Position numbers and translations under genes: made by a program. A model generated the notes under the pieces. The model saw only the letters and a program-made list of their open reading frames with translations, made no database searches and was not told the origin of the DNA. A DNA stretch of 64,000 bases from Aestuariispira insulae. Its GTDB lineage: Bacteria; Pseudomonadota; Alphaproteobacteria; UBA8366; Aestuariispiraceae. Below, piece by piece: positions 44,706 to 60,177 of this stretch. Positions within the stretch are counted from its first letter, which is position 1. Every line of letters begins with the position of its first letter. The DNA lies in NCBI RefSeq assembly GCF_003385955.1, contig NZ_QRDW01000011.1:1-64000 (forward strand), in the 5' to 3' direction.

Positions 44706-44818
44706 GATTTTTTCCCAGAAAATGAAAGGTCATTTATGCTACGGATTTTCTGCCATTTCGGATTACCATTTTGACGGTTCCCCCTTTCATTTTCGCCCTA
44801 TTCGACTATGATTTCGCC

Positions 44819-45322
44819 ATGATTGAAATCGAACGAAAATTCCTGGTCCGTCATACCAATTGGGGCCAGCCGGAATCCAGCAGGAGAATTGAGCAGGGCT
44901 ATCTGTTCATTGCTGAAGGACGGAGCATGCGGGTGCGCCGTACGGGGGAAGCCTACGAAATGACCTTGAAGGTTCAGGGCGAAGGCCTCATGCGCCACGA
45001 GATCAACACTGATATCGATGCGGCCCAGGGTCAAAAGATCCTGGACGAGCTTTGCGTTGAGCCGCCGATCCAGAAAACCCGGCATGTGATTGCCTTTGCC
45101 GGCAAGACCTGGGAAGTGGATGTCTTTGATGGGGCCAATGACGGCCTGATCATGGCTGAGATCGAGCTTTCTTCCGAAGATGAACAGTTCGACTTGCCTG
45201 ATTGGATCGGTCCCGAAGTCACCGATGATGACAGGTTTTTCAATTCCGCCCTGTCCAGCCACCCTTTCCAGGATTGGGGCGTCAGCTATGATGATCTGAT
45301 TGCCAGTAAGGAAGCGGCCTGA
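44819..45322 (+). CDS. CYTH-domain (triphosphate tunnel) protein
   Basis: A 167-residue CYTH protein. The signature E-x-E-x-K opens it (MIEIERKFLV), followed by the tunnel strands RRIEQGYLFI, SMRVRRTGEAYEMTLKVQ and RHEINTD, and TWEVDVFDGANDGLIMAEIELSSEDE with acidic metal ligands. These line a tunnel that binds triphosphate compounds (inorganic triphosphate, thiamine triphosphate or related). ATG 44819 is chosen because the family begins there. It lies next to a leftward CHAD gene, a usual genomic companion. A triphosphatase activity is expected; its natural substrate is open. Confidence 0.88.
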   Translation: MIEIERKFLVRHTNWGQPESSRRIEQGYLFIAEGRSMRVRRTGEAYEMTLKVQGEGLMRHEINTDIDAAQGQKILDELCVEPPIQKTRHVIAFAGKTWEVDVFDGANDGLIMAEIELSSEDEQFDLPDWIGPEVTDDDRFFNSALSSHPFQDWGVSYDDLIASKEAA

Positions 45323-45404: not shown

Positions 45405-46142
45405 TCAGTCCAGTTCCTTGTTGATTTCACGCCATAGTTCCCGGTAGGAAAGCGCCGGTGCTGTCCGGGGGGCAAAATCACCGACCGGGGCCCGCTCGAT
45501 TCCCATTTTCTCGACCGCGCTGGCATAGGGAATATTGGCCTCGATATGGCCTTTTCCCTTGGCGGCAAACTCTTCTATGATGTCCTTGTGCATTTTCTTG
45601 CGCCGATCGACCATGGAGAAGAAGGTGCGCAGCTTAAGCCCTTTGATTTTTTCCTCTTTCAGGAAAAGCCTGATCTGATCCAAGGTCCTGATGGACAAAG
45701 TGGTGGGCAGCATCGGCACGATCAGCATATCGCTGGCGCGGAAGATTTGCTGGGACAGTTCGGAAATGCTGGGCGGGCAATCGAATACGATCAGGTCATA
45801 TTCTTTTTTCAAAGGCGTGATCAGTTTTTTCAGCCGGGAGTCTTTCTCATCGGCAAAGCGCAAATCCAGGTCACGATAGGAAAAATCGGCCGGCAGAAGG
45901 TCAAGGTTGGTGTAATCCGTGCCTTTGATCAGATCATCCAGGTCGGACTTGCCCTTGACGATTTTCTTGCCGCCGCCTTTGACTTTGGGTTTGACGCGAA
46001 AATAGAAACTGGTCGCGCCCTGGGGATCCAGATCCCAGATCAGGGTGCGCAACCCGGACTGGGCCGCCTGGTAGGACAGGTTGACGGCTGTGGCGGTTTT
46101 GCCGACCCCGCCCTTCATATTATAAATGCTGATGACTTTCAT
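45405..46142 (-). CDS. ParA-family ATPase without ParB
   Basis: A 245-residue deviant-Walker ATPase. The P-loop KGGVGKTATAVNL is at residues 10-22 with the signature lysine, Walker A' WDLDPQGATSF follows, and FDCPPSISELSQQIF is the Walker B area. An unusual Lys-rich insert (VKPKVKGGGKKIVKGK) sits near residue 52. No ParB or centromere-like repeat lies in the window. It follows the CHAD gene by six bases and so is probably co-transcribed. A positioning role for CHAD-bound polyphosphate granules is a hypothesis. Confidence 0.9.
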   Translation of the reverse strand: MKVISIYNMKGGVGKTATAVNLSYQAAQSGLRTLIWDLDPQGATSFYFRVKPKVKGGGKKIVKGKSDLDDLIKGTDYTNLDLLPADFSYRDLDLRFADEKDSRLKKLITPLKKEYDLIVFDCPPSISELSQQIFRASDMLIVPMLPTTLSIRTLDQIRLFLKEEKIKGLKLRTFFSMVDRRKKMHKDIIEEFAAKGKGHIEANIPYASAVEKMGIERAPVGDFAPRTAPALSYRELWREINKELD

Positions 46143-46148
46143 GCGGCC

Positions 46149-47717
46149 TTACCCCCGGCTTTTGAACAGTTTCTTGAAAGAATCCTTCACCTCGTCGGTG
46201 CTGAACGCGTCAAAACGCACATGAAACGCCCGTCTTGCCCCGCCTTGTTTCTGCAGGATGGAATCGGCAACCATGCCCATGGCCATCTGGGTTTCCACAG
46301 GTGCCTTTTTCGCTTCGGCCATGTCGCGGCCCAATTGTAAAATGGCGTTGGACTGAACCTCGGTATCCTGAAATTCCCCCAGGACATTCTGGAAACTTTT
46401 TAAGGCCTTGATCAGCTTGCCGATCTCACCGGCGGGATAAAGACTTTGGAAAAACTCCAGCAGATAGCGCAGTTTCTTGCAGGTGATGCGCAGGTCATGC
46501 AGCATTTCAGCGGGCGAATCCTCATCAATGGCGCCGCCTTCCTTCATCACTTTGCGATAGGCTTTCCAGATCCGGCTATCGGCCAACTCCTTGACCGGTA
46601 ACTCGGCATCCTCGCCGCGCGAACTTTTCTGGTGTCCTTCAGTCAGATAATGACGCCAGTCATTGAGGATCTTGCGATAGCGCGCACTGCCGATCAGTCT
46701 TTGCACCTGAGCATGGGCTTTGCCCTGCTTGGAGACAAGGTAATCCTTGAATGGGGTCAGATAGTCCCGGTAGCTTTCGGAGATGCTGCCCTGGATTTTC
46801 GGGAAATCAAGCAGGTAGACATCAAGGTCGCGCATGTCGTTGGTTTGTTGGCCGATCCATTTGAAATCATCCTTGGCCTTGGCAATCACCTTGGGCGGCA
46901 GCACGCCTTTGTCCAGTTGGCTGAGCGCGGATCTTGTGCGGCGTATGGCGACACGGAAATCATGGAGGAATTCCGCGTCGATATTGGCGGCCGTTCCTTC
47001 TTCATTGCGCTCGATGGTGTCCAGCAAGGTGAGATGAACCAGATGGGATGCCTGCTGGGCGGTCATATGAGGTTCAAGATGCAGTTTCAATTTTGAACTG
47101 TAGTCACCCGGGGTGACTTTGATCAGATCAAGCCCTTTCAGGAATGGGGCACGGTCTTCGGTTTTACGCTGGTAGCTGTCATCCAACAAGGCCATGGCCT
47201 TCTCAGCGGCTTTGGCATAACCGCGGATCGGCTCCAGAACCAAACGGACGCCTAAGGCTTTCCGGGCGCGGGAACCGGGTTTGGCGGCCTCGATAGATTC
47301 CAGGTTCAACCGGAAGAGGGCTTTGCCCTCTTTGTCGCGCACTGCCATCGCTGTGCGCAGGGCATGCAGGTCCAGCCTGGCCATCAGGCGACGGACATCG
47401 ATCAACTCTTCCACCATGTCCCTGATCCGCCCAGAGCCGAAATCATCGGCGAAACCGGTTTTCAGGCGACCGGGCATGGAGGCGAGGATTTCATCAGCGT
47501 TCAAAGATTCAACCTGGATATCGGATTGGTCCTCATGCTGGCTGACACAAAGGGCTTTGCCAGCGTCGAAGAGCCGCCAGTCAAAGGTGTCATAGTAGCT
47601 GAGCTTGAACGAACGCTCCGAGGCGGTCTCGACCTTGCCAACGCCTGCAAGAAGTTTGGCAATATCCAGTGCTGTGTCGGTATCGGCCAACTGGTAAGAT
47701 ACGGTTTCCCTGCTCAC
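46149..47717 (-). CDS. CHAD-domain protein with CYTH-like N-terminus
   Basis: A 522-residue protein. The CHAD domain occupies about residues 220-515, with two His/Arg-bearing helices, LHDFRVAIRRTRSAL and MLHDLRITCKKLRYLLEF, that bind polyphosphate in characterised members. The N-terminal 200 residues look like a degenerate CYTH fold (SERSFKLSYYDTFDWRLFDAGKAL). I prefer GTG 47717 behind GGGAG, 11 bases away; a TTG at 47741 gives an 8-residue extension. It forms an operon with the ParA gene, divergent from the phosphate-chemistry operon at 48146. Confidence 0.85.
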   Translation of the reverse strand: MSRETVSYQLADTDTALDIAKLLAGVGKVETASERSFKLSYYDTFDWRLFDAGKALCVSQHEDQSDIQVESLNADEILASMPGRLKTGFADDFGSGRIRDMVEELIDVRRLMARLDLHALRTAMAVRDKEGKALFRLNLESIEAAKPGSRARKALGVRLVLEPIRGYAKAAEKAMALLDDSYQRKTEDRAPFLKGLDLIKVTPGDYSSKLKLHLEPHMTAQQASHLVHLTLLDTIERNEEGTAANIDAEFLHDFRVAIRRTRSALSQLDKGVLPPKVIAKAKDDFKWIGQQTNDMRDLDVYLLDFPKIQGSISESYRDYLTPFKDYLVSKQGKAHAQVQRLIGSARYRKILNDWRHYLTEGHQKSSRGEDAELPVKELADSRIWKAYRKVMKEGGAIDEDSPAEMLHDLRITCKKLRYLLEFFQSLYPAGEIGKLIKALKSFQNVLGEFQDTEVQSNAILQLGRDMAEAKKAPVETQMAMGMVADSILQKQGGARRAFHVRFDAFSTDEVKDSFKKLFKSRG

Positions 47718-48145
47718 GATTTTAAAAACTCCCGTCGGCAAGGTGAAGCGGGAGTAGCTGGCCGAACGGCGGCCAGGGCATATGAAAATCGATCAATCGG
47801 TTACTCCCACGCCAGAACTGATTGTCGAGAGGGTGCTGCAAATATGTTTGGAAATCAAGGGCGATAGGGGAATAACTTGTCTCGATACAACCGGCCCCTG
47901 GCTCAATAAAAAACACCCGCGCTCTTAAGGCTATAGATAGTCTGTGAAGTTTGTGTGGCGGAAATATAGTTGTAAATGAAACTATTTCAAGCCTCCTTTG
48001 GGGGGAGGGTATATGCATCCCTTAAAAAGCCGCACTGACAACGCAGGGTCGTTTTATTGAGGGCGGCGTTTTTGTTGAGGGGGAACATCATGTTAGTCTT
48101 GCTGGGGCCTTTTCTTTTAACTTCATCCCGACTTGGGAGGCAGGT
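47718..48145. other. Divergent regulatory region
   Basis: A 428-bp gap between the CHAD-ParA operon and the Nudix-led operon. It holds the palindrome at 47969-47982. I see no gene or RNA in the rest; its AT-rich right part probably contains the promoter for the Nudix operon. Confidence 0.55.
47969..47982. promoter_or_regulatory. Palindrome like the aromatic-cluster operators
   Basis: TA-GTTGT-AAAT-GAAAC-TA, same spacing and flanks as at 5657-5670. It is 38 kb away and in the middle of the divergent promoter region of the phosphate-chemistry island. The outer TA...TA and GAAACTA half-site are complete. Confidence 0.5.
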
Positions 48146-48613
48146 TTGAAAAATCTAGTGCCGGGTGTTCGAAATGCGGTGCGTGCCGTCATTCTGGAGG
48201 GCGGCCGGTTGCTGGTTCAACATAAATTCTATGCCGATGGTCGGGAACGGTTTGTGCTGCCAGGCGGTGCGCCTGAGGGTGGAGAGACCCTGGAACAGGG
48301 GCTAAAACGGGAATGCCGCGAGGAGATTGGCGCGGATATCACTGTTCTCCGGCTGTTGCATGTGGCGGACTTCCTGAAGCCGAGGGAAACCGACCCGGTC
48401 ACCTACCGCCAGCAGGTGGAGTTTCTTTTTTTATGTCAGCTGCCGGAAGGCTATGTTGCCGGCAACGGCCCCCATCCGGACAAGCATCAGCAGGCGGTTT
48501 TGTGGCTACCGGTGGCCGAACTCTGTCATAAAAACTTCTTTCCCGGGGGCTTGAGCCGCCTATTGTCAAAGCCTATACAGGCTGAGCCCGTCTATCTGGG
48601 CCTGATTGAATGA
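48146..48613 (+). CDS. Nudix hydrolase
   Basis: A 155-residue Nudix protein. The full box is present around residues 37-59: GGAPEGGETLEQGLKREC, then REEIG, with the REUxEE core. The N-terminal VRAVILEGGRLLVQHKF strand and FLLCQLP pattern fit the fold. The start is TTG 48146 with GGGAGG five bases upstream; GTG 48158-region alternatives would trim it. It leads an operon of eight genes. It would cut a nucleoside diphosphate-linked or diphospho compound; no substrate is deducible. Confidence 0.85.
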   Translation: MKNLVPGVRNAVRAVILEGGRLLVQHKFYADGRERFVLPGGAPEGGETLEQGLKRECREEIGADITVLRLLHVADFLKPRETDPVTYRQQVEFLFLCQLPEGYVAGNGPHPDKHQQAVLWLPVAELCHKNFFPGGLSRLLSKPIQAEPVYLGLIE

Positions 48614-48629
48614 AAAGTGTAAGGACCGC

Positions 48630-50255
48630 ATGCAGTTACCCATCGCCGTCCGCGACAACCTCTTTTTCCTGCTCAGTGAAACCGCCTCCCAGGTGGCCAA
48701 TCTGCAGGTCTTGCTGGAAACCCTGTCGGACTCTGTCGGCCAGCGCATCCTGGACCGGACCGGTTACAGCTATAATCTGAACATGCGCATCCATGACGGC
48801 TGCGCCAGGACCCTGCGCCGGTCGAAAAAGGACGATGTGGATATCTATTCCCTGCGCGCGGCGGAGAGCATTGCCTCCAGTCTGGAACAGATCACCGCGC
48901 TGACCCATGATTGTGTGCGATTGGTTCTGAAGCTGGATCAGGCCGACAAACTGAAAAAGCGCCCCCATGCCGCCCAATTGGAAGAGGTGATGAAGGGGAT
49001 TGGCCTGATTGAAAAGGCGGTTGAGAAATATGATACCCGCCTGGCGCTGAAAATCGGCAATATTGAGCGCAAGTTGGATCGGGCCTATGACAAACTCTAT
49101 CAGGAACATCTGAAGGAACTGCGCAAAACCAAACATGCCGAAGAGGTGGTGACATCGCTTTTTGTTGGTCAGCGGATTGCAGAAATGGGTGACGTTCTGT
49201 TGCTGATCAGCGAGGCAATCATCTCCGCCAGACTGGGCCAGCCGATGCATATGGAACGCTTTCGGTCGTTGGAAACGGCGCTATCGGATCTGGGGCTGAA
49301 AAAGGCGCGGGTTGAACCTCTGGCGGCGACCAAATCAGGAAGCGGCATCTCCGGGATCTCGGATCCCGATGCTGATGACAAGGATTACGTGGCGATCTTC
49401 AAGGACGGCAAGAAAGACAAGATGCTGGAAGAGCGCGACAGCGTTGAGAGTTGGCACGAGATCTTTCCTGGCCTGGCGCCGCAGATTTTTTCCTACAAGA
49501 AACAGGGTAAGCATGCGTCCCTCCTGATCGAGCATCTGCCGGGCCGCACTTTCGAACAGATCGTGCTGCAAAATGAAGATGATCTGCTGGGAAAAGCGCT
49601 TAAGCATTTGACCAAGACCCTGAACGCGGTCTGGGTGGAAACCAAATCGAAAAAGATTTATCCGGCATGCCATATCGGCCAGCTGCGTAAACGCCTGGAC
49701 AGTGTGATTGATTTGCATCCGGATTTTCGGCCGGGACCGGTTAATATCAACGGCTGTTCGATCAAATCCATGGACCAGTTACTGGATCAGGCAGAAAAGC
49801 TGGAAGAGAAGTATCCGCCGCCCTTTTCCGTTTACATCCACGGAGATTTCAACCTGGACAATATCATTTTCGATCCCCAGGAGAAATCGATCCGCTTCAT
49901 TGATCTGCATCGGTCGCGTTATATGGATTATGTGCAGGATGTGGCCGTGTTCATGGTGTCGAATTACCGACTGCAGGCGCTGGACAAGCCCACCCGGGAG
50001 CGCATCCGCCTGGTTGCGTCGCAAATTTACGCCTTTGCTGCGGATTTCGCGGATAAGAATAAAGACAGGAATTTTGAGATTCGCCTGGCGCTGGGCCTGG
50101 CGCGGTCATTCATCACATCGACGAGGTTCATTCTGGACCAGACCCTGGCCAGCAACATGTTCTGGCGCGGCCAGTATCTGCTGAAACGGGTCGGTGAGAT
50201 CAAGCCCAAGACCGCCCGTGCCTTCCGCCTGCCTGTTGAGGAGCTGTTTAAATGA
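48630..50255 (+). CDS. PhoU-like domain fused to an APH-type kinase
   Basis: A 541-residue fusion. The N-terminal half is helical and PhoU-like, with two repeats: RAAESIASSLEQITAL, and FVGQRIAEMGDVLLLISEAI, which matches the PhoU ERIGD-type helix. The C-terminal half, from about residue 250, is an aminoglycoside-phosphotransferase/choline-kinase-like domain: YIHGDFNLDNIIF near residue 403 (HGDxxxxN catalytic loop) and FIDLHRSRYMD near 420 (metal-binding DxH). ATG 48630 follows AAGGA. A kinase coupled to a phosphate-sensing module fits the operon. The substrate is unknown, and aminoglycoside resistance is unlikely. Confidence 0.8.
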   Translation: MQLPIAVRDNLFFLLSETASQVANLQVLLETLSDSVGQRILDRTGYSYNLNMRIHDGCARTLRRSKKDDVDIYSLRAAESIASSLEQITALTHDCVRLVLKLDQADKLKKRPHAAQLEEVMKGIGLIEKAVEKYDTRLALKIGNIERKLDRAYDKLYQEHLKELRKTKHAEEVVTSLFVGQRIAEMGDVLLLISEAIISARLGQPMHMERFRSLETALSDLGLKKARVEPLAATKSGSGISGISDPDADDKDYVAIFKDGKKDKMLEERDSVESWHEIFPGLAPQIFSYKKQGKHASLLIEHLPGRTFEQIVLQNEDDLLGKALKHLTKTLNAVWVETKSKKIYPACHIGQLRKRLDSVIDLHPDFRPGPVNINGCSIKSMDQLLDQAEKLEEKYPPPFSVYIHGDFNLDNIIFDPQEKSIRFIDLHRSRYMDYVQDVAVFMVSNYRLQALDKPTRERIRLVASQIYAFAADFADKNKDRNFEIRLALGLARSFITSTRFILDQTLASNMFWRGQYLLKRVGEIKPKTARAFRLPVEELFK

Positions 50256-51145
50256 GCAATCTTAAAATCGCCGTGATCGGCATTCCCGGGAAATGGTCCA
50301 CTGAAGTGCTGGGCGACGCGCTGGAACAGCGGACCGGTTATCGGTTGGTTTTGGATATGGCCGAGGTGACGGCGGATCTGGCCGATGGAAGACTGCATGC
50401 GCGTGGGGTGGATCTCACCATGCTGGACGGTATCATCGTCAAAAAAATCAGTCAGGAATATAACCCCAACACCCTGGATCGGATCGAGTTACTGCGCCTG
50501 GCGGAAAATAAAGGCGTGCGTATCTTCTCACACGCCGAAACGATTGTACGCATGATCGACCGGCTATCTTGCACCATGACGCTTCATAATGGCGGCATCC
50601 CCATGCCCGGCACCATCGCAACCGAAGATATCGAAGCCGGTGTGGATGCAGTTGAACGATTTGGCGGCGCGGTATTCAAACCGCTGTTTTCCACTAAAGC
50701 GCGCGGCATGTGCGTGATCGGCGCGGACCAGCCGGAACCGGCGATCCGGGCGGCGGTGGGGGCGTTTAAATCGGAAAACCCGATGATGTATATTCAGCAA
50801 CGCCTGGACCTGCCCGGGCGCGACTATGGCATGGTTTTTCTGGGGGGCGACTATCTGGGGACCTATGCCCGTGTGTCCCAGGGCGACAGCTGGAACACCA
50901 CCATTCAGGATGGCGGAAAATATGCGCCCCATGACCCGCCTCAATCTACCATTGATCTGGCCTCAAAAGCCGAACGGCTGTTTGGTATGGATTTCACCAC
51001 GGTGGATGTGGCGGATACAGATGAAGGGCCGATTGTCTTTGAGGTTTCCGCATTTGGCGGTTTTAAGGGCGCCAAGGAAGGCATTGGCATCGACGCGGCA
51101 GGCCTTTATGCGGATTATGCGATTAACAAAGTGAGCAAGGGATGA
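50252..51145 (+). CDS. RimK-like ATP-grasp ligase (GAK system)
   Basis: A 297-residue ATP-grasp enzyme. Recognisable parts are KIAVIGIPGKWSTEVL at the start, the substrate-domain NPNTLDRIELLRLAENKGVRIFS, the ATP-grasp lysine strands GAVFKPLFSTKARG and a late IVFEVSAFGGFKG metal site. It starts at 50252, overlapping the PhoU/kinase stop. RimK relatives add amino acids or glutamate to peptides. From memory it matches the NCBI family called GAK system ATP-grasp enzyme; here the GAK partners lie at 51142 and 55274. The acceptor is unknown. Confidence 0.78.
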   Translation: MSNLKIAVIGIPGKWSTEVLGDALEQRTGYRLVLDMAEVTADLADGRLHARGVDLTMLDGIIVKKISQEYNPNTLDRIELLRLAENKGVRIFSHAETIVRMIDRLSCTMTLHNGGIPMPGTIATEDIEAGVDAVERFGGAVFKPLFSTKARGMCVIGADQPEPAIRAAVGAFKSENPMMYIQQRLDLPGRDYGMVFLGGDYLGTYARVSQGDSWNTTIQDGGKYAPHDPPQSTIDLASKAERLFGMDFTTVDVADTDEGPIVFEVSAFGGFKGAKEGIGIDAAGLYADYAINKVSKG

Positions 51146-52218
51146 AGGTAATCGAAGCAGCCGAACGCTTGATCAATGGGCGAGAGCTGATTGAAGGCTC
51201 GGTGACCCTGGATCTGGACGGTTTCACCGTTGCGGTCTATTCCAACGATGAACGGATGTTGGAACGGCTGGGAATTTATTTCTCTTCAGTGCTCGGTGCC
51301 GGGGAGCCGGACGTGGAAATCCTGGTGTTGGAAGGGGCAGTGCCGGAGCTGGAGCTGGCATTTGCCGACTGGAGCCGGGAACCGGGAAAGACGGGGCGCA
51401 AGGACGCGATCGCGGATCTGGAGGATGGCCGAATACTGCGCAAGGTGCGCACCGGCATGACCTTCCTGCAAAGCCGGTCCCATCTGATTGCGGCGGGTGC
51501 TTGTCTTGCCAATGACAATCAGGTGATCAATTTCATCCTGAACCAGCAGATGAGCCATATTCAAAACCATGGCGGCCTGATCTGCCATGCATCAGGGCTG
51601 GTCCGCCAGGGGCGCGGTCTTGGCATTGCCGGTTTTTCCGGTGGCGGCAAATCGACCTTGATGTTGAAAATGATGGAACAGGATGATGTTGATTTCCTGA
51701 CCAACGACCGGCTTTTCCTGACCCCGGAAGCCGGTGCGGTGACGGCTCACGGCATTGCCAAGATGCCGCGCGTCAATCCGGGCACATTGCTGAATTCCGA
51801 CCGCCTGCGCACGCTTCTTGGGGAAGAGCGATGCCGTGAGCTGGATAGTTTGCCGGTATCCGCGCTTTGGGACCTGGAAGAAAAATATGATGTGGATATT
51901 GAGGATTTCTATGGTGAGGGCCGGATTGCGGCCAGAGCGCCGTTTGGGGCCTTCCTGATCTTGAATTGGAAGCGGGATGGGATGGAGGATTGTGAAATTG
52001 CGCCGGTGGAACTAGATGAGCGTCCCGACCTGCTGCCGGCTGTGATGAAATCACCGGGGCCGTTCCATCAGGATACAGAGGGACGGTTTCTGGAAGATGG
52101 CGCGGTATTGGACCCTGCACCCTATTTGGCCTGCCTTACGAATCGGCCTATCTTTGAGGCCACAGGCAAAGTCGATTTTGATGCGGCTGTCCGGTTCATC
52201 CAGGCAATGAAACTGTAA
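51142..52218 (+). CDS. HprK-related kinase (GAK system)
   Basis: A 358-residue kinase resembling HPr kinase/phosphatase. A P-loop reading GFSGGGKST lies near residues 164-172, followed by DVDFLTNDRLFL, the metal-site region. The C-terminus is predicted helical and contains no HPr-specific motif. The large N-terminal part (SHIQNHGGLICHA) is typical of the HprK-related kinase B class as I recall. It overlaps the ATP-grasp gene by 4 bp. The protein or small molecule it phosphorylates is not known; the amphi-Trp protein at 55274 is a candidate. Confidence 0.78.
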   Translation: MKVIEAAERLINGRELIEGSVTLDLDGFTVAVYSNDERMLERLGIYFSSVLGAGEPDVEILVLEGAVPELELAFADWSREPGKTGRKDAIADLEDGRILRKVRTGMTFLQSRSHLIAAGACLANDNQVINFILNQQMSHIQNHGGLICHASGLVRQGRGLGIAGFSGGGKSTLMLKMMEQDDVDFLTNDRLFLTPEAGAVTAHGIAKMPRVNPGTLLNSDRLRTLLGEERCRELDSLPVSALWDLEEKYDVDIEDFYGEGRIAARAPFGAFLILNWKRDGMEDCEIAPVELDERPDLLPAVMKSPGPFHQDTEGRFLEDGAVLDPAPYLACLTNRPIFEATGKVDFDAAVRFIQAMKL

Positions 52219-52243
52219 CCGACCGGAATAAGAGAACAGATAA

Positions 52244-53209
52244 ATGCTCCGGGAAATATTAATTTACAGGCAGGGAAAAGCCCGTGACGGTGGCCGTCGG
52301 GGGGCCAGGGGCCGCAAATTGACCGATGAGGGCAAGCGCGATGCCCAACGCATGGGTGTCTGGCTGGACCGGAACGGGCTGGTGCCTGACCAGATCTATT
52401 CCTCCAATTCCTTTCGGGCCCGCAGTACCGCCAACAATTGCTGCAAGGCGGCCAACCTGGGCGTTGCCGAGGTGATCTTAGATGCGGACCTTTACCGGGC
52501 GGGTCGCAAGAATCTGATTGGCTTTCTCCGGAACCTGCCGGAGCAAACAAAACGGGTGATGATTGTCGGCCATAACCCGGGGTTGGAGAAACTGGTGAAT
52601 TATCTGGGCCGGACATCCGACAAGGACAGTGCGGTGGAAATGGATGCGGGCAGCCTGGCCCATCTGCGTTTTACCGGAGGTTGGCAAAACCTGGATAAGG
52701 GCTGTGCGCAAATGATCCATCTGGTTCATCCACGCCAACTGCCGGAGAAATTCCCCTACCCAACCCCTGATGGTCCGGAACAGCGGCTCCGGCCGGCCTA
52801 TTATTACAGCCAGTCGGCAGTGGTGCCTTTTCGCAAGCGCAAGGGCAAACTGGAAATTTTGTTGGTGACTTCGGGCGGTGGCAAAAAATGGATCATCCCC
52901 AAAGGCATTCATGATCCGGGCATAACCGCACAGGATTCCGCGGCCAAGGAAGCCTTTGAAGAGGCAGGGGTTCTTGGGACGGTATTGGATTGTAAGCTTG
53001 GCCAATACGCATATTCCAAATGGGGAGCGACCTGCGAGGTTGTGGTCTTCCCGATGGAAGTGACGCGCGAACTGCCATCCAGCCAATGGGACGAAAGCCA
53101 TCGGGACCGCCGTTGGCTGCCCGTCAAAAAGGCGGCAAAGCTGATCAGCAATGATGATATCAAGCTGATCGTGAAATCCCTGCCGGATTGCCTGGGGGAT
53201 TGCGGTTGA
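52244..53209 (+). CDS. SixA-like pseudophosphatase fused to a Nudix domain
   Basis: A 321-residue fusion. The N-terminal 160 residues form a SixA/histidine-phosphatase fold, but the acceptor motif reads YRQGKA with Gln at residue 10 where the catalytic His of RHG should be. The second His (H110, IVGHNPG) and the arginine segment SFRARSTA remain. The C-terminal Nudix domain (about 185-321) has KWIIPKGIHDPG and AAKEAFEEAG, as in diphosphoinositol-polyphosphate-type hydrolases; the box lacks the first Glu. The N-domain may bind but not transfer phosphate. An intact phosphatase follows with a 1-bp overlap. Confidence 0.8.
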   Translation: MLREILIYRQGKARDGGRRGARGRKLTDEGKRDAQRMGVWLDRNGLVPDQIYSSNSFRARSTANNCCKAANLGVAEVILDADLYRAGRKNLIGFLRNLPEQTKRVMIVGHNPGLEKLVNYLGRTSDKDSAVEMDAGSLAHLRFTGGWQNLDKGCAQMIHLVHPRQLPEKFPYPTPDGPEQRLRPAYYYSQSAVVPFRKRKGKLEILLVTSGGGKKWIIPKGIHDPGITAQDSAAKEAFEEAGVLGTVLDCKLGQYAYSKWGATCEVVVFPMEVTRELPSSQWDESHRDRRWLPVKKAAKLISNDDIKLIVKSLPDCLGDCG

Positions 53210-53904
53210 TGAACGGGCGGATCGCGGTGCTTTTGCGTCACGGGGATTATCATCAAAAGCCGGGTGTTCCAAGCGCGCACCAACCCTTTCCGCTGACGGG
53301 GAAAGGGTGCCGCCAGGCAGCGGAAGCGGCCGGGTTGTTGATGGATATGGCGCGCGATAAGGGTTGGGCGGTCAACCCGGTAATTCACTGTTCAAATTTG
53401 CTGCGAGCCTGGCAAACGGCGGAAATCATCGGGGAAAACACGGATCTGTTCGAACGTCAGATCGGGCATGATGATCTGGCGGAACGCGGGGTCGGCAGCG
53501 CGGCCAATCTTACCGTGGCCGAGATTGAAAAAAGTCTGGCCGATGATCCGCGCTTTGATGCGCCGCCAAAAGACTGGAAAAGCAACAGTCACTATTGCCT
53601 GCCGTTGCAAGGTGCGGAATCGCTGATCCAGGCGGGCGCGCGCGTGGCAACCCGTATCGGTGAGATACTTCGGGCCGTAGAAGGGGGGACACAGCCGGTG
53701 ATGACCGTGTTTGTCGGGCATGGGGCTGCTTTCCGGCATGCTGCCTATCATTTGGGAGTGCTGGCTTTTGAGGATATTGCGCGTCTAAGCATGTATCATG
53801 CAAAGCCGGTTGCCCTGGCGGATGGGGGCGATGCCCCCTGGCATCATATTGCCGGGGAATGGAAAATCCGCGCGGAAGCGGTAGAAAACCGGAATCTCGA
53901 TTGA
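53209..53904 (+). CDS. Histidine phosphatase family protein
   Basis: A 231-residue phosphatase with the complete RHG motif, LLRHGDY, near residue 9, and FVGHGAAFRHAAYHLG near the C-terminal end for the second catalytic His. It also has SNLLRAWQTAEI, supplying the phosphate-binding Arg. It starts at ATG 53209, overlapping the previous stop as TGATG. Unlike its neighbour at 52244 it should be active. It may remove phosphate from phosphohistidine or small molecules; the substrate is not shown. Confidence 0.83.
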   Translation: MNGRIAVLLRHGDYHQKPGVPSAHQPFPLTGKGCRQAAEAAGLLMDMARDKGWAVNPVIHCSNLLRAWQTAEIIGENTDLFERQIGHDDLAERGVGSAANLTVAEIEKSLADDPRFDAPPKDWKSNSHYCLPLQGAESLIQAGARVATRIGEILRAVEGGTQPVMTVFVGHGAAFRHAAYHLGVLAFEDIARLSMYHAKPVALADGGDAPWHHIAGEWKIRAEAVENRNLD

Positions 53905-53906
53905 CC

Positions 53907-55277
53907 ATGGCCCGATTGAAAACCGAACCCCATGTGCCACGCTATCGTGGAAAAAGCTGGATTAAGCCCAAACTGCCGCGGGATGTGCGTGACTGGACCC
54001 ATGGCGGGGAAAAATCCATAGCACTTGATGGTGACAGTCCGGAAATCCTGGCGGCTGTGTTGGATGAGTTCCATAAGCGCCGGGCTTGGAAATGGCCGAA
54101 GCGGCGCCATTACTTCTTTTCCGACCTGCATGGAGACCCGGATGCTTTTGCTGCTTCGCTGGTGGCCTCTGGCGGTGTTCATAAGACAGGGCCCGGGCCG
54201 ACCGACTTCGTGTTGACACCCAAAGGCAAAAAGGGCGCCTTTGTCATTGGCGGGGACTGCTTTGATAAAGGCCCGAGTAGTCTTGGTCTGTTGCGCACGA
54301 TCCACCATCTGATGAAACAGGGTGCGCGTGTGCGTGTGCTGGCGGGCAACCATGATGTCCGGGTGTTTCTCGGCATGGGCGTGGTCGGCCAGGAAAAAGA
54401 TCCCCATAATGAGCATTTCTTTATCCGGACCGGCCAGAAGATCATCCCGCTGCTCAAGGAGGTTTGGGAGGAATATCTGGCGGACGGCAAGGGCCTGAAG
54501 GGTATTCCGGGGCGCAAGGAATGCCGCCGGCGGCTTTTCCCCGATGACCAATGGCCGGAAGCCTTTCCCAAGATCGCCGAGGGGAAGGTGCGCAAGGCCC
54601 AGATCCATAGGGAAATCGTCCGTATTTCCAAGAAAATGCAAAAGTTTGAAAAAGCCTGTGAGGAGCAGGAGTTGTCGCTGCGCCAGGTCTATGCGGCGGT
54701 GGAAAAATGGAAACAGTTGTTTTTGGACGCAGATGGTGAATTTCACTGGTTCTTCAAACGCATGCGCTTGGCTTACAAAGTCGGCTCGCTGTTGTTTGTC
54801 CATGCAGGGGTGGATAATGAGATCGCACGCGATCTGGGCCGCGGCGGCGTGCGTGAAATGAACCGTGCCTTTAAGACGGCATTGAAGGAAAAGCCATTTG
54901 ATTTCTATTACGGCTCGCTCTGCAATACCGTCAGGACCAAATATCGCCAGGTAGATATGCCCTTTTCCACCAAGGGCGCGCGCCATGTGCGCAAGGCCGG
55001 GATTACCGCTATCATTCACGGCCATCGCAATCTGCATCACGGCCAGCGCATATCCAGCCGCAAGAGCCTGATCAGTTTTGAATGTGATGCGACCTTGGAC
55101 CGGCATTCCAGGAAGAAGGAAAATGTCCGGGGGCATGGAGCAGCGGTGACCATCATTGAACCCAAGGGCTGTATCCTTGGGATCTCCAGCGATTATCCCT
55201 ATGTGAAGAAATTCGACCCCAGGGAAACCCTGGATCATCTGAAAAGCATCCAGCCGAAACAGAGGCGACGCGTATGA
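53907..55277 (+). CDS. Metallophosphoesterase
   Basis: A 456-residue calcineurin-type phosphoesterase. The metal motifs are complete: D73-L-H75 (FSDLHGD), D117 and D120 (GGDCFDKGP), N148-H149-D150 (AGNHD), and later FVHAGVD and IHGH. A long Lys/Glu-rich coiled insert lies around residues 225-270. It resembles serine/threonine-protein-phosphatase-like enzymes but is longer. ATG 53907 is two bases after the histidine phosphatase stop. A protein phosphatase reversing the HprK-like kinase is a reasonable hypothesis. Confidence 0.83.
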   Translation: MARLKTEPHVPRYRGKSWIKPKLPRDVRDWTHGGEKSIALDGDSPEILAAVLDEFHKRRAWKWPKRRHYFFSDLHGDPDAFAASLVASGGVHKTGPGPTDFVLTPKGKKGAFVIGGDCFDKGPSSLGLLRTIHHLMKQGARVRVLAGNHDVRVFLGMGVVGQEKDPHNEHFFIRTGQKIIPLLKEVWEEYLADGKGLKGIPGRKECRRRLFPDDQWPEAFPKIAEGKVRKAQIHREIVRISKKMQKFEKACEEQELSLRQVYAAVEKWKQLFLDADGEFHWFFKRMRLAYKVGSLLFVHAGVDNEIARDLGRGGVREMNRAFKTALKEKPFDFYYGSLCNTVRTKYRQVDMPFSTKGARHVRKAGITAIIHGHRNLHHGQRISSRKSLISFECDATLDRHSRKKENVRGHGAAVTIIEPKGCILGISSDYPYVKKFDPRETLDHLKSIQPKQRRRV

Positions 55278-55543
55278 AACAAAATGGACGATTCCGACAT
55301 GAATCCCTTCAGGACCGCAGCAGCATCCAGGATTTGCTGAATGCCCTGAATGAGGGGATGGCCAGAGGCAAGCTGGTTTTAGAAAACGAGGATGGCAAAC
55401 TGGAATTGAACCCTGCGGACCTGGTGAATTTGCGCATTTCCGCCACGGCCGATGAGGATCGGAACCGTCTGGATATCCGGATTTCATGGCAGGGCGAGCG
55501 GGAAGTGCCCAAGGGCAAGAAAATTCCGCTTAAATCGGACTGA
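55274..55543 (+). CDS. Amphi-Trp domain protein
   Basis: An 89-residue protein fitting the amphi-Trp domain: an N-terminal FRHESLQDRSSIQDLLNALNEG helix, the GKLVLENEDGKLELNPADLV strand and an alternating RNRLDIRISWQGE strand with the defining Trp. It has no catalytic motif and ends in a Lys-rich tail. It overlaps the metallophosphatase stop by 4 bp and is the last gene of the operon. In the GAK system (Grasp, Amphi-Trp, Kinase) it is the small partner and may be the carrier or substrate that is modified. Confidence 0.78.
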   Translation: MKQNGRFRHESLQDRSSIQDLLNALNEGMARGKLVLENEDGKLELNPADLVNLRISATADEDRNRLDIRISWQGEREVPKGKKIPLKSD

Positions 55544-55566
55544 GCCTGTTCTTAGATTTCAAAAAA

Positions 55567-55584
55567 GTTTCATTTGTATGAAAT
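55567..55584. promoter_or_regulatory. Palindrome before the lipoprotein operon
   Basis: GTTTCATTTGTATGAAAT has a TTTCAT-TTGT-ATGAAA inverted repeat, with a left half (AAGTTTCATTT) like the operators at 906-919. Its right half is shifted by 4 bp compared with the other sites. It lies 61 bp before the lipoprotein start at 55645. Confidence 0.4.
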
Positions 55585-55644
55585 GGATCTGCCCCTAGAG
55601 TGAGACTCATAGGGTATGCAGCTATTTGAAGTGTGGGGGAAGAC

Positions 55645-57246
55645 ATGTTGCGCAAGAGAATTTTGACCGGCATGGCTGCCGGTCTGCTGGGGTTGTTGCT
55701 GTCCGGCTGTAACGATGGCGGGACCAGCCGGACGGTTACCCTGATTTCAGGATCCGAGAATAAATCCCTGTTTCCAATCGTGCAGGATTTTGCGGATCAG
55801 CAGGGCATCGACCTTGAAATCAAGGGGCGCGGTTCGGTTGATATCATGCTCGATATCCGAAAAGGAACCCGGGCCGAGGCGGATATCGTCTGGCCGGCGG
55901 CATCTTTGTGGCTGGAGCTAGGCGATCTGGCGCGGGTCGTGAAACATGAAAAATCGATCATGCGCTCTCCCGTTGTTTTCTGGGTTAAGAAAAATAAAGC
56001 GGAAACACTTGGCTGGACGGGCAGGGATGTCACCATGGCTGATATCGTATCGGCGGCGGAAGGCGGCCTGACCTTCGGCATGACGTCTGCCACCCAGTCC
56101 AATTCCGGGGCGATGGCCTATTTTGCGATGTTGTCGGCGGCGGCCGGCCGTCCCAATGTGCTGACAGAGGCGCATGTGAATGACCCGGCGGTGAAATCCC
56201 GTGTAGCTGAATTGCTCAAGGGGGTCGATCGCACTTCCGGTTCCTCCGGCTGGCTTGGTGATCTGTATCTGGAACATCCGGGTGCCATGGATGCGATGTT
56301 CAATTATGAAGCGGTCGGCATTGAGGTGAACCAAGCCCTTGAACGCGCCGGCGGTGAACCGCTTTGTGCGATTTATCCGGCCGATGGTCTGGCGATAGCG
56401 GATTCCCCGCTTGCCTATGTGGATAAAGGCGACAGTGATGATGATCAGGCGATCGAGGCATTTTTTCTGAAGCTTCAGGAACATCTTCTGTCCGATAAGG
56501 TTCAGGCTAAACTGGCGGCATCCGGCCGCCGGGTCGGGCCGCTGGGGCTTTCTTCTTCCACTCTCAGCGACACAGTGTTCCGTAAAGATTGGTGCATTGA
56601 TACCGGGCGGGCCATTACCGCCCTGACCATTCCCGAGCAATCCGTGATTGAGGCCGCATTGCGGGTGTATCAAGGGGAAACCCGCCGTCCTTCCGAAATT
56701 GTTTTCCTGCTGGATTATTCCGGTTCCATGACCGGTGACGGCAACCACCAATTGGTGGAGGCCCTTTCCAATCTGCTGTTGGAAGTGAAATCCAAGACAT
56801 TTTTCCTGGAGACCACGGCGGATGACATATTTTATGCGGTACCCTTTAATGACAGCCCGTTGGCCATCTGGAAAGCGACGGGGAATTCCGCGACATCCCT
56901 TGAACAGATGTTCCGGCAGATCGAGGAATATAAGCCCAATGGCGGCACGGATATTTATGCAGCGTCCGCACGCGGCCTGACAATCTTGAATGAATCCGGT
57001 CACGGCGACACCCATAGCCAAATGATTCTGTTGCTGACCGACGGCCAATCCCAAGGGGCGCCGTCCATGGTGCTGGAGCGGCTGTCGCCGGATCCGGCGG
57101 CAAACAAGCCGATCTTCTCCATCCTGTTCGGGCAGGCCTCTGAAACCCAGGTAGAGCAATTGGCCAAAGCCAGTGCCGCCCGAGTGTTTGACGGGCGTAA
57201 GGGGCTGGTGGATGCGTTCCGCAATGCCCGGGGATATGCAAACTGA
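55645..57246 (+). CDS. Lipoprotein with solute-binding and vWA domains
   Basis: A 533-residue lipoprotein. The signal has an LLSGC lipobox with Cys near residue 22. An extracellular solute-binding domain (about residues 30-330) starts VTLISGSENKSLFPIV. A C-terminal von Willebrand factor A domain starts near 355 with the MIDAS FLLDYSGSM and a second LLLTDGQSQG motif. Solute-binding and vWA in one protein are unusual, and no permease is nearby, so sensing or complex assembly is more likely than transport. GGGGGA precedes ATG 55645. Confidence 0.82.
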   Translation: MLRKRILTGMAAGLLGLLLSGCNDGGTSRTVTLISGSENKSLFPIVQDFADQQGIDLEIKGRGSVDIMLDIRKGTRAEADIVWPAASLWLELGDLARVVKHEKSIMRSPVVFWVKKNKAETLGWTGRDVTMADIVSAAEGGLTFGMTSATQSNSGAMAYFAMLSAAAGRPNVLTEAHVNDPAVKSRVAELLKGVDRTSGSSGWLGDLYLEHPGAMDAMFNYEAVGIEVNQALERAGGEPLCAIYPADGLAIADSPLAYVDKGDSDDDQAIEAFFLKLQEHLLSDKVQAKLAASGRRVGPLGLSSSTLSDTVFRKDWCIDTGRAITALTIPEQSVIEAALRVYQGETRRPSEIVFLLDYSGSMTGDGNHQLVEALSNLLLEVKSKTFFLETTADDIFYAVPFNDSPLAIWKATGNSATSLEQMFRQIEEYKPNGGTDIYAASARGLTILNESGHGDTHSQMILLLTDGQSQGAPSMVLERLSPDPAANKPIFSILFGQASETQVEQLAKASAARVFDGRKGLVDAFRNARGYAN

Positions 57247-57911
57247 TGACAGATGGTCTGAAAGACACGGTCCGTGTTGCTCTGGCTGTCACCATGGCGG
57301 CAGTTGTCGGAGTGGTCTTGTATTTTGCCACACAACTGCATGAGTGGGTTGTGATTGCTGCGGCGTTGGCGGCTTTTGTCGTTATGATTCTGGTTGTGCC
57401 GAAACAACGGGAAGATCATGAAGTTATGATCGCCCCTGGGGTCAGTCTGGCGGATCAGAAAAAGGTGACCGGTGAAGGGGGGCATATCCTGGGCAGGGTG
57501 CGTGATGCGCATGATGCCATACCGGTCGCGGATGAAGCGCATCTGCGCGTGGCCGGGATCATGGATGTGCTGGTATCCATCTACCGGCATTTCAATGAAG
57601 ACCCTGCCGAGATCCTTACAACAGCCCGGTTCCGCGAACAGCATGTGAATAAGGCGGTGGAACTGGTCGAGGTTTATTCCAGGCTGGTGACCGACCCCTT
57701 ATTGGATGAGAGCGGGCGCGCCTATATCGATCGCTGCCGGGAACGGTTTGCGGGGATTGAGGCCGCCTTCGCTGCGCAGTATAACGCCATGCTGCGCCAT
57801 GATGTATCGGCCCTGGAACAGGCCGGCCGCAATCTGGAAACGTCGCTGCGGTTAGAGCATGGATTGGAAAAAGTCGCGGCCAAGGCGCTGCGCAAGGAGG
57901 CTGTATCATGA
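57246..57911 (+). CDS. XpaC-like membrane protein
   Basis: A 221-residue protein with two N-terminal membrane helices (residues about 10-28 and 34-50), and a helical cytoplasmic part with VADEAHLRVAGIMDVLVSIYRHF and a late DRCRERFAGIEAAF. This is the outline of the XpaC (5-bromo-4-chloroindolyl phosphate hydrolysis) family. In Bacillus subtilis xpaC is next to yaaN, a TelA relative; a TelA gene follows here two genes later. It overlaps the lipoprotein gene as TGATG. The activity is unknown. Confidence 0.72.
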   Translation: MTDGLKDTVRVALAVTMAAVVGVVLYFATQLHEWVVIAAALAAFVVMILVVPKQREDHEVMIAPGVSLADQKKVTGEGGHILGRVRDAHDAIPVADEAHLRVAGIMDVLVSIYRHFNEDPAEILTTARFREQHVNKAVELVEVYSRLVTDPLLDESGRAYIDRCRERFAGIEAAFAAQYNAMLRHDVSALEQAGRNLETSLRLEHGLEKVAAKALRKEAVS

Positions 57912-59002
57912 AGAATATTGTTATCGGCGTGGTTGCTCTGCTGGTCATTGTTGGCGGCGTGATTGCGGTGGATCGAATGGGGGGCGATATTCTCAAGCGG
58001 GCCGACCGTCCGGATGATGTCACCATCACGGCGCTGGTCGGTGGGGAAAAAATCGAATTTCTCCGCAATGAAGGGATCCTGAAGATCCTCGATCAGCGGT
58101 ATGGCATCACTCTGGATGCGCGGAAGGCCGGTTCCATTGCCATGGTGACGGACAAGCCCGCGGGGGATATCGACGCGCTCTGGCCATCCAACGAAGTGGC
58201 GGCGGAAATATACAATAACCGGCATGGCAAGCCTGTGGCGGACGAGCTGATCTTCAACTCTCCGATCGTGATGTATACCTGGAAGCCGATTGCTGAAGCG
58301 TTGATCCAGCAGGGCATTGTCGAGAAACAGGACAATGTCTTTTACGTGGTGGATACCCAGGCCATGATCCAATTGGTTCTGGCAAAAAAAGACTGGAAGG
58401 AAATTGGCGTGAAGGCCCTATGGGGTAAGGTTGCCGTTCAATCCACCAATCCTGCCAAGTCCAATTCCGGCAATATGTTTTCCGGCCTTATTGCCAATAT
58501 GCTGTCGGGCGGGCGTGTGGCCGGTCTGCAGGATGTGGCAACACATGGACCCACGATCCAATCGTTCTTCAAGTCTCTCGGCCATATGGAGCATTCTTCG
58601 GGGGATATTTTCCGGAAATACCTGGATACCGGGATTGGTGCCAAACCGATCATCGTTGGTTATGAAAACCAGCTCGTGGAGTTTTTCATCGCCAATGAGC
58701 GCTATCGGGATCTGATCCGGAAGGAGGTCATCACCCTCTATCCGCAACCGACCATTTGGGCTTCACATCCGGTGATTGCGCTGAATACCAAGGGTAAGAG
58801 GCTGATTGAAGCGCTGTCAGACGAAGAGATCCAGGAAATTGCCTGGCGCGAACATGGTTTCCGCTCGGGTTTGAAGGACCGCCTGACCGATACCAGTGCC
58901 GTTGAAATTGAAGGCCTACCGAAAACCATCACCAGCGTGATGCCGATGCCTGGCGCCGAAGCCATGGAAAAAATAATCAAGCTGATCGATCCGGATGCCT
59001 GA
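57908..59002 (+). CDS. Membrane-anchored solute-binding protein
   Basis: A 364-residue protein with an N-terminal anchor (IVIGVVALLVIVGGVIAV) and no cleavage site or lipobox. Its outer part resembles extracellular solute-binding proteins: DVTITALVGGEKIEFL, DALWPSNEVAAEIYN and TNPAKSNSGNMFSGLIANML, the latter similar to a motif in the lipoprotein at 55645 (TSATQSNSGAMAYF). So two related binding proteins lie in one operon, without ABC partners. ATGA overlap with the XpaC-like gene. The ligand is unknown. Confidence 0.75.
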   Translation: MKNIVIGVVALLVIVGGVIAVDRMGGDILKRADRPDDVTITALVGGEKIEFLRNEGILKILDQRYGITLDARKAGSIAMVTDKPAGDIDALWPSNEVAAEIYNNRHGKPVADELIFNSPIVMYTWKPIAEALIQQGIVEKQDNVFYVVDTQAMIQLVLAKKDWKEIGVKALWGKVAVQSTNPAKSNSGNMFSGLIANMLSGGRVAGLQDVATHGPTIQSFFKSLGHMEHSSGDIFRKYLDTGIGAKPIIVGYENQLVEFFIANERYRDLIRKEVITLYPQPTIWASHPVIALNTKGKRLIEALSDEEIQEIAWREHGFRSGLKDRLTDTSAVEIEGLPKTITSVMPMPGAEAMEKIIKLIDPDA

Positions 59003-59034
59003 GGGTGTGCGGCTCAATATGAAGGGGAAGAGGG

Positions 59035-60177
59035 ATGAGTGAGACTGCAATAAAAGGCGCAACCGATCTTGTGCCGGTGATGATGCCGGCGGAAGCGGTG
59101 ATTTTTGAAGAAACGGAATTTTCAGAGGACGGTTGGAAACGGGTCCGGGACCTGGCCGAGATGGTAGACGCAACAGACTCAAACCTGTTGCTGACCTATG
59201 GGGCAAAACCGCAGCGCGAGGTTTCCGCTGTTTTTGACAGTCTGCTTCGAACGGTCCGCACAGAGGATGCAGGGGTTGGCGGTGATCTGGTGATTGCCCT
59301 GTCGCGCGGCATGGAAGAAGCCAAAATTAGGGAAATGCGAGCCGAGTTGGATCATGGCGGTTCGAGCTTTGCCTATTTCCTGAACCAGATCCCGCTGATC
59401 GGGCCGTGGATTGCCCGTCAGATATCCGCCTTTCTCTATTTCAAACATCGCAAGGATTTCATCATCAAGCATTTTGATGAAATGGAACGGCAGATTGCGG
59501 TCAAGAAGGATGAGTTGCTGGCGGCCAATACCCAACTGGATATGAATTACGAGGCGACGGAAAAGAACCTCCAGGATCTGAAGGTCTATATTGCCGCCGG
59601 TGAACAGGCCGGATTGCGCCTGGTGGCGGAATCGAAAATCCGCTTGGAACAGGCTCAGGCATCGAAGGATCCGGTGGTGGTCAATCAGTATCGGGACTTT
59701 CGCGGCAACGTGGAGTCTTTCCTGACCAGGATTGTTCGCCTGCATACGGCCTATGCCAATGCGGCCCAGAATTTGCCGCAGATCCGCCAGATCCAGGAAA
59801 CCACCAAGATCGCCCTGGCGGACATTGTCGATACCCTGCTGGTGGATATCCCGCAGATGAAACAGGCAATCTTACAGTTGACCGCGCTGAGAACCATCAA
59901 GGATGCCAGGGTTGGCGCGGAAAAGCGTCGCGAGATCAGTCGTGAATTGCGGGAAATCACGGCCAATGCCGCCAACGACAGTTATCTGGAAGCCAAGGCC
60001 AGCCAGGGCCAGTTTGAAACCGAACTGGTGCTGCTGGAAACCATGGCGGCCAAATTGAAAGAAACCGAACAACAGGCCCGCCAGATCGAAAGCCAGAATG
60101 CTGCGGCACGTGAGGACGCCCATAAGCGTTTGCAGACCGTGACGCAGGAATTGGCTGAAATCCAAACTACGGTCTGA
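59035..60177 (+). CDS. TelA-family protein
   Basis: A 380-residue helical protein of the TelA (toxic anion resistance, tellurite) family. Typical are SSFAYFLNQIPLIGPWIARQISAFLYFKHRKDF in outline, a long coiled region from about 140, and QNLPQIRQIQETTKIALADIVDTLLVDIPQMK. Homologues are linked to tellurite and cell-envelope stress tolerance, but the mechanism is unclear. Last gene of the vWA-lipoprotein operon, 32 bp after the previous stop. Confidence 0.87.
   Translation: MSETAIKGATDLVPVMMPAEAVIFEETEFSEDGWKRVRDLAEMVDATDSNLLLTYGAKPQREVSAVFDSLLRTVRTEDAGVGGDLVIALSRGMEEAKIREMRAELDHGGSSFAYFLNQIPLIGPWIARQISAFLYFKHRKDFIIKHFDEMERQIAVKKDELLAANTQLDMNYEATEKNLQDLKVYIAAGEQAGLRLVAESKIRLEQAQASKDPVVVNQYRDFRGNVESFLTRIVRLHTAYANAAQNLPQIRQIQETTKIALADIVDTLLVDIPQMKQAILQLTALRTIKDARVGAEKRREISRELREITANAANDSYLEAKASQGQFETELVLLETMAAKLKETEQQARQIESQNAAAREDAHKRLQTVTQELAEIQTTV

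Follow-up and report, generated by a model that had tools for sequence, protein, structure and literature searches.

What might a compact set of kinases, phosphatases and a ligase do for the bacteria that carry it? We addressed this question for an operon at positions 48146-55543 of the window, by which we mean the first 64,000 nt of contig NZ_QRDW01000011.1 from the alphaproteobacterium Aestuariispira insulae (RefSeq assembly GCF_003385955.1). The operon consists of eight closely packed open reading frames (ORFs), all on the plus strand (Table 1). An earlier note, made from the sequence alone, had described eight tightly packed genes of named families, and had matched an ATP-grasp enzyme, an HprK-related kinase (here HprK-B, for HprK-related kinase B) and an amphi-Trp protein among their products to what NCBIfam calls the GAK system (TIGR04354-TIGR04357). 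The ORFs and their NCBIfam and Pfam matches bear out that description, and all three of these proteins exceed the curated cut-offs of their GAK families; plasmid-borne relatives also carry GAK names in RefSeq. The note knew of no published function for GAK, and our literature search, with most subscription papers outside its scope, found no paper describing one. What was already known is the database name; new here are a redefined core, a dedicated PhoU-kinase fusion and sites resembling PhoB boxes upstream of related operons. These findings lead us to propose, tentatively, that GAK is a phosphate-state module in which a PhoU-gated kinase works with enzymes that add marks to, and remove them from, either a small molecule or amphi-Trp.

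Table 1. Genes of the GAK operon in the window, followed by neighbouring genes outside the core.
Feature	Position	Strand	Status	Sequence evidence	Relatives
Stand-alone Nudix hydrolase	48146..48613	+	optional	PF00293 1.2e-16	35/63 with enough flank
PhoU domain + APH-type kinase fusion	48606..50255	+	core	PF01895 2.2e-05; PF01636 1.2e-10	63/63
GAK ATP-grasp, RimK/MptN-like	50252..51145	+	core	TIGR04356 435.8 bits (cut-off 300); PF08443	
HprK-related kinase B, intact Walker A	51142..52218	+	core	TIGR04355 322.1 bits (cut-off 200)	63/63
SixA-like + Ap4A-hydrolase/DIPP-like Nudix fusion	52244..53209	+	optional	TIGR00249 56.3 bits (cut-off 74.5, not reached); PF00293	39/63
Histidine phosphatase	53188..53904	+	core	PF00300 5.5e-20	61/63
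Metallophosphoesterase, weakly ApaH-like	53859..55277	+	core	PF00149 9e-07	62/63
amphi-Trp protein, 89 aa	55274..55543	+	core	TIGR04354 66.3 bits (cut-off 31)	63/63
CHAD-domain (polyphosphate-binding type) protein	46149..47741	-	divergent neighbour, not core	PF05235 2.4e-56	
ParA-like ATPase paired with CHAD gene	45405..46142	-	not core	ParA assignment read from sequence	BLAST homologue beside CHAD at the same 9/96 loci
CYTH-domain protein	44816..45322	+	neighbour, not core	PF01928 5.3e-12	homologue at 2/96 loci

The operon is real and widely shared among bacteria; indeed, identical gene order in dozens of genomes places it far beyond chance. Overlaps of 1-4 bp at several junctions, as the earlier note had reported, are present: the sequence has ATGA-type overlaps of 4 bp at 50252-50255, 51142-51145 and 55274-55277, and the SixA-Nudix and histidine phosphatase genes share a single base, 53209, provided that the latter begins at its probable start codon, ATG 53209. 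Alignment with relatives favours ATG 48630 over TTG 48606 as the probable start of the PhoU-kinase; for the metallophosphatase, ATG 53907 may be the start instead of 53859. We found no terminator-like site within 55400-55800, and the G+C content of the operon does not depart from that of the flanking DNA.

Which of the eight genes belong to the system? We mapped 96 loci, comprising three plasmid matches, 13 loci from genome searches and the best 80, by ATP-grasp similarity, of at least 493 stretches encoding a relative in one named genome collection; at least two pairs of records among them (L052/L081 and L050/L118) are probable duplicates. Genes were counted at the 63 loci whose sequence extends at least 3.5 kb upstream of the ATP-grasp gene and at least 7 kb downstream of it. 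The PhoU-kinase, ATP-grasp, HprK-B and amphi-Trp genes are present at every one of these loci, the metallophosphatase gene at 62 and the histidine phosphatase gene at 61. By contrast, the SixA-Nudix fusion is found at 39 loci (in line within the operon at 36), the stand-alone Nudix gene at 35 and a gene for a CofD-like protein at 29. Removing ATP-grasp proteins more than 90% identical to another left 54 loci, with core counts of 52-54. The genes are thus co-conserved and not scattered, as the earlier note had anticipated, but two of its eight are optional: GAK is a six-gene core with optional genes, rather than eight fixed genes. Relative to the four names in NCBIfam (ATP-grasp, amphi-Trp, HprK-B and CofD-like), this core adds the PhoU-kinase, the histidine phosphatase and the metallophosphatase, which RefSeq names only in general terms in the plasmid records, whereas the CofD-like gene (TIGR04357) is optional and was not found in the genome of A. 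insulae at E 1e-20.

The core genes are tightly spaced. Median gaps are -8 nt between PhoU-kinase and ATP-grasp, -4 nt between ATP-grasp and HprK-B, +2 nt between the histidine phosphatase and the metallophosphatase, and -4 nt between the metallophosphatase and amphi-Trp, values that are biased towards overlaps because the ORF caller uses the first possible start. Distances within each family correlate with ATP-grasp distances (r 0.66-0.85; none of 999 permutations as high), which would be expected of a unit, but plain vertical descent would yield the same. Three loci (L067, L072 and L103) have amphi-Trp and no homologue that we could find of the histidine phosphatase or the metallophosphatase, hinting that these two enzymes may act as a separable pair.

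The system is patchily distributed. Of the 39 family and order genomes compared, only that of A. insulae itself encodes an ATP-grasp above the cut-off. In a sample of 398 genomes from the phylum, the ATP-grasp was detected at E 1e-60 in 14, A. insulae included, and HprK-B at E 1e-20 in 16. In the two additional HprK-B genomes (G178 and G222), the HprK-B gene lies at the end of a contig, which would place the ATP-grasp gene beyond it; both contigs continue with SixA-Nudix, histidine phosphatase and metallophosphatase genes. Amphi-Trp is encoded in 21 of the 398 genomes, namely 13 of the 16 with HprK-B and eight without GAK; of the three remaining HprK-B genomes, G071 and G194 have contigs that end inside the operon, and the 10.7-kb contig of G178 lacks an amphi-Trp homologue. 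A CofD-like protein above the cut-off is encoded in five of the 398 genomes, four of them with GAK. Outside this sample, five Paracoccaceae plasmid records encode an ATP-grasp with 56-59% identity to that of the window, and the three of these that were inspected share the order PhoU-kinase, ATP-grasp, HprK-B, histidine phosphatase, metallophosphatase, amphi-Trp. The best 80 of the at least 493 stretches come chiefly from genera of Alpha- and Gammaproteobacteria, together with the planctomycete Rhodopirellula, and we take these genera to be largely marine or halophilic. The six-gene system is thus kept together across two proteobacterial classes and at least one planctomycete genus. Among the same 80, the ATP-grasp of Rhodopirellula (65-69% identity) is as close to that of the window as is the ATP-grasp of Roseibium (61-65%), which would fit transfer between phyla. 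None of the relatives is in a viral contig, and we therefore rejected a viral origin of the system.

A pointer to function comes from the PhoU-kinase. In an AlphaFold2 (AF2) model computed from 52 sequences, that of the window and 51 of the 78 listed (predicted local distance difference test score, pLDDT, 88.3), residues 5-212 adopt the fold of the phosphate signalling protein PhoU, matching Pseudomonas aeruginosa PhoU (4q25) with Z 24.6 and 2.0 Å over 203 residues. Unlike PhoU, the fusion adds a kinase part with an APH-type fold, which matches methylthioribose kinase (Z 21.5, 4.4 Å over 299 residues) and in which all 52 aligned sequences share HGDFN-D-N (412-419) and Asp433. The fusion is dedicated to GAK: a whole-protein profile found full-length fusions in 12 of 239 genomes, A. 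insulae included, all of them with a GAK ATP-grasp, and the other 21 profile-matching genomes have plain PhoU only.

Is GAK also regulated by phosphate? Among our new findings, the DNA upstream of the operons gives the strongest evidence of a phosphate link. The PhoB box is an 18-nt sequence, CTGTCAT-N4-CTGTCAT, built on a CTGTCAT unit (PMC4415409). Relative to the first gene of each operon, we scanned positions -250 to +30 on both strands, scoring matches to the 14 defined bases, with 453 promoters of neighbouring genes as controls. At least 10 matches occur in 37 of 85 GAK promoters and in 104 of these controls (p 1.2e-4), and at least 11 in 12 and 27, respectively (p 0.011). The enrichment persisted after deduplication (30 of 70 GAK promoters with at least 10 matches; Mann-Whitney 5.2e-5) and against AT-matched controls (34 of 140; p 5.5e-4), and none of 200 decoys with shuffled 7-mers gave as large a difference between GAK and control promoters; these neighbour-promoter controls superseded a test with mononucleotide shuffles. 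On the plus strand between -140 and -20, a range chosen post hoc after the first both-strand scan, the corresponding counts are 15 of 74 GAK promoters against 21 of 453 controls, and 13 of 70 against six of 140 AT-matched controls.

A de novo search agrees with the scan. In three runs of expectation maximization (EM), the 70 promoters yielded.TGTCAtAata.tgT.ac or a close variant, with log-likelihoods of 112-116.5, such that a PhoB-box-like repeat is the top de novo motif upstream of GAK operons; eight control sets searched with equal effort gave 77-97. An early EM run had used 120 seeds for GAK and 50 for the controls, and an equal-effort, full-range repeat kept the result. The numbers of promoters that exceeded the levels of the controls (34 and 26 of 70) were obtained with the training data. 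Candidate sites are found in Thalassospira (T. lucentensis), Zhongshania, Marinobacter (M. xestospongiae), Roseibium and others, and PhoB probably switches GAK on under phosphate limitation in many carriers. Genes near the loci point the same way: a cluster of Na/Pi-cotransporter type, whose one checked representative has PF02690 and PhoU domains, lies near nine of the 96 loci, and a CNNM/CorC cluster lies near 11. Each of these neighbour clusters was checked against Pfam by a single representative. The tie to phosphate suggested by the earlier note is supported by the PhoU fold, the Na/Pi-type neighbours and the PhoB-box enrichment together.

From the computed families, PhoU and kinase folds, six-gene core, coinheritance and promoter enrichment, we infer all of the biochemistry, which way signals run and what amphi-Trp does, as follows. 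GAK would be a horizontally mobile module of phosphate homeostasis, in which the PhoU domain would read the state of phosphate transport and gate the APH-type kinase fused to it. This kinase, HprK-B and the RimK-like ligase may attach marks, such as phosphate or an amino acid, to amphi-Trp or to a small molecule, and the histidine phosphatase, the ApaH-like phosphatase and the optional Nudix enzymes may remove those marks or their phosphoanhydrides; amphi-Trp would be the substrate or the reader. Our findings yield a testable claim, namely that GAK represents a branch of phosphate control so far overlooked in bacteria; if so, the Pho response would gain a post-translational or small-messenger layer.

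Several observations weigh against this proposal. The excess of boxes with at least 12 of 14 matches is not significant (four of 85 GAK promoters against six of 453; p 0.057), and a strong PhoB box is missing from most GAK promoters. Half-set cross-validation of the de novo motif was unstable, recovering it in one of four splits; in that split, seven of 35 test promoters scored higher than the 95% level of the controls. In the promoter of the window's operon, the best match to the Pho box reaches nine of 14, which is not convincing, and the position weight matrix score is exceeded by 25% of controls. The ExxxD metal motifs of PhoU are not conserved in the fusion: compared with five plain PhoU proteins, the Asp of the first motif is replaced and the second motif is partly kept (Glu in 42 and Asp in 52 of 90). 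Na/Pi and CHAD neighbours occur only at a minority of loci, and CHAD genes show no enrichment in GAK genomes (eight of 16, against 34 of 64 for the rest). Lastly, the G178 contig of 10.7 kb that lacks an amphi-Trp homologue (L188) is of GAK type, with HprK-B, SixA-Nudix, histidine phosphatase and metallophosphatase genes in line.

Could amphi-Trp itself be what the enzymes modify? The earlier note had envisaged a kinase/phosphatase/ligase circuit acting on a small carrier, perhaps amphi-Trp. In a specific form of that idea, HprK-B would phosphorylate Ser11 of amphi-Trp (within HESLQD), the ATP-grasp would add an amino acid and the phosphatases would reverse both, making a covalent protein switch. 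HprK-like kinases act on peptides, such as lasso-peptide precursors. In HprK-B, H149, the Walker A motif GGGKST (167-172) and D189 are invariant in 15 of 15 sequences, and we take them to be equivalent to active-site residues of HPr kinase/phosphorylase. It matches no Pfam family at E 0.01, and does match the HprK_rel families of NCBIfam; a search for relatives of solved structure gave only Walker-A matches to ABC transporters, which we discarded. Amphi-Trp, present at all 63 loci, is predicted to form one helix and four strands (AF2 pLDDT 83.8) and has a GAK-specific N-terminal motif, F7-R-H-E-S-L-Q-D. Among the 68 GAK sequences used for amphi-Trp (that of the window and 67 of 71), H9 and S11 are each kept in 66; none of nine stand-alone amphi-Trp proteins has S11, and the only one with H9 falls under the family cut-off. 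Two loci (L048 and L049) have Ala at position 11 and yet retain the HprK-B P-loop, which weighs against S11 as an essential phosphosite. We also rejected phosphorylation of a C-terminal Ser, as in lasso-peptide kinases, since the C-termini vary and the last residue is Ser in just 12 of 68. Stand-alone amphi-Trp in eight sampled genomes without GAK, and HprK-B without an amphi-Trp homologue on L188, likewise speak against a switch, and we consider it unlikely. Of the circuit in the earlier note, the assignment to GAK and the phosphate tie stand; the modified carrier, favoured by the GAK-specific His9/Ser11 motif and disfavoured by Ala11 and the variable C-terminus, is possible but weak. A small-molecule target for the system and modification of amphi-Trp seem equally possible.

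The stand-alone amphi-Trp genes (L179-L186 and L189) lie in varied surroundings and encode a different N-terminal motif; by eye, nothing in these neighbourhoods recurs beyond near relatives. The amphi-Trp model had no Foldseek match at E 0.001, and its best structural match, to VIA, has Z 3.1 and 6.1 Å over 53 residues, which is not proof of a new fold.

A second alternative is that the system makes a small phosphorylated cofactor or metabolite, with a CofD-like transferase, an MptN-like glutamate ligase, the kinases and a CobC-like phosphatase building something like the side chain of coenzyme F420 or methanopterin, and amphi-Trp binding the product. The ATP-grasp shares the RimK domain of RimK/MptN alpha-L-glutamate ligases and has MptN as its second-best NCBIfam match (133.8 bits, under the cut-off), with a weak match to CofF. 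The histidine phosphatase resembles alpha-ribazole phosphatase (39.7 bits, also under the cut-off), the kinase fold of the PhoU fusion is closest to small-molecule kinases, and a CofD-like gene is present at 29 loci, the copy at L046 matching PF01933 (2.7e-37). Nonetheless, this gene is absent from 34 of the 63 loci, as well as undetected in A. insulae at E 1e-20, and the GAK ATP-grasp differs from RimK ligases in having E-x-S for E-x-N (E264-V-S266, invariant in 16 of 16 sequences and aligned to E-V-N of RimK), residues that we presume to be metal ligands, and a glycine-rich loop that reads STKARGM. Neighbour families were taken from 202 of 282 near-neighbour genes, short ones and near-duplicates having been omitted by hand. 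The most frequent of them include no obvious ring-building enzyme, and the first batch had a single recurrent redox neighbour, a flavoprotein resembling HI0933 (three of 102). A cofactor of this kind strikes us as similarly improbable.

More speculative is the idea that GAK is a phosphate-messenger circuit, a bacterial functional counterpart of eukaryotic inositol-pyrophosphate signalling. The PhoU-gated kinase, the second kinase and the ATP-grasp would make a phosphate-rich or amino-acylated messenger during phosphate limitation, the histidine, ApaH-like and Nudix phosphatases would destroy it, and amphi-Trp would read it. The eukaryotic enzymes have a mix of folds like that of GAK, PPIP5K joining an ATP-grasp kinase to a histidine phosphatase and the diphosphoinositol polyphosphate phosphohydrolases (DIPP) being Nudix enzymes. 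The nearest PDB relatives of the Nudix half of the SixA-Nudix fusion are the Ap4A hydrolase 3i7u and DIPP1-3 and Ddp1, and E236, E239 and E240 of that half are kept in 61-62 of 62 copies. However, the first Glu of its Nudix box is replaced by Leu, Met or Ile in 56 of 62, and the GAK ATP-grasp is of the ligase type. The SixA half of the window's fusion has RQG for RHG (Gln10), a position that is His in 52 of 62 aligned copies and Gln in seven; with Gln for the catalytic His, this half is probably inactive as a phosphatase. The metallophosphatase keeps D89, H91, D133, N164, H165 and H389 in 14 of 14 sequences, and its profile matches ApaH weakly (7.6e-04). We regard the messenger circuit as quite unlikely.

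The CHAD and ParA genes next to the operon raise yet another possibility, that GAK enzymes trim or modify polyphosphate, or proteins bound to it, in granules placed by CHAD and ParA. Polyphosphate is bound by CHAD and degraded by Nudix enzymes of the Ddp1 type (PMC6537752), the type that the Nudix half of the fusion resembles. The CHAD-ParA pair adjoins GAK in the window and, variously arranged, at nine of the 96 loci, a recurrence that suggests a polyphosphate-granule system assisted by ParA. Against a part for GAK in it, CHAD shows none of the phylogenetic linkage to GAK that we looked for, as noted above, and PPK and PPX are absent from the 25 most frequent families in each of two batches (202 nearest neighbours), making granule handling a very doubtful function. 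An anti-phage or conflict system on mobile DNA, to which the patchy distribution and the Paracoccaceae plasmid copies might point, is highly improbable, since PADLOC gave only two weak matches, to the Nudix and ParA proteins, no relative lies in a viral contig and no defence family is among the most frequent neighbours listed.

Two further observations concern DNA around GAK loci. Downstream of the operon in the window, positions 55633-60177 encode a fusion of solute-binding and VWA domains, a PF10112 protein, a solute-binding-like protein without a Pfam match, and TelA. Homologues of this cluster lie beside none of the 96 GAK loci, and we take it to be unrelated to the system; TelA was detected at E 1e-20 in none of the 13 other family genomes. 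Elsewhere, a contig labelled as a Halobacteria archaeon (L084, from a metagenome-assembled genome) carries a GAK locus with the ParA-CHAD-CofD arrangement of gammaproteobacterial loci, and is probably mis-binned.

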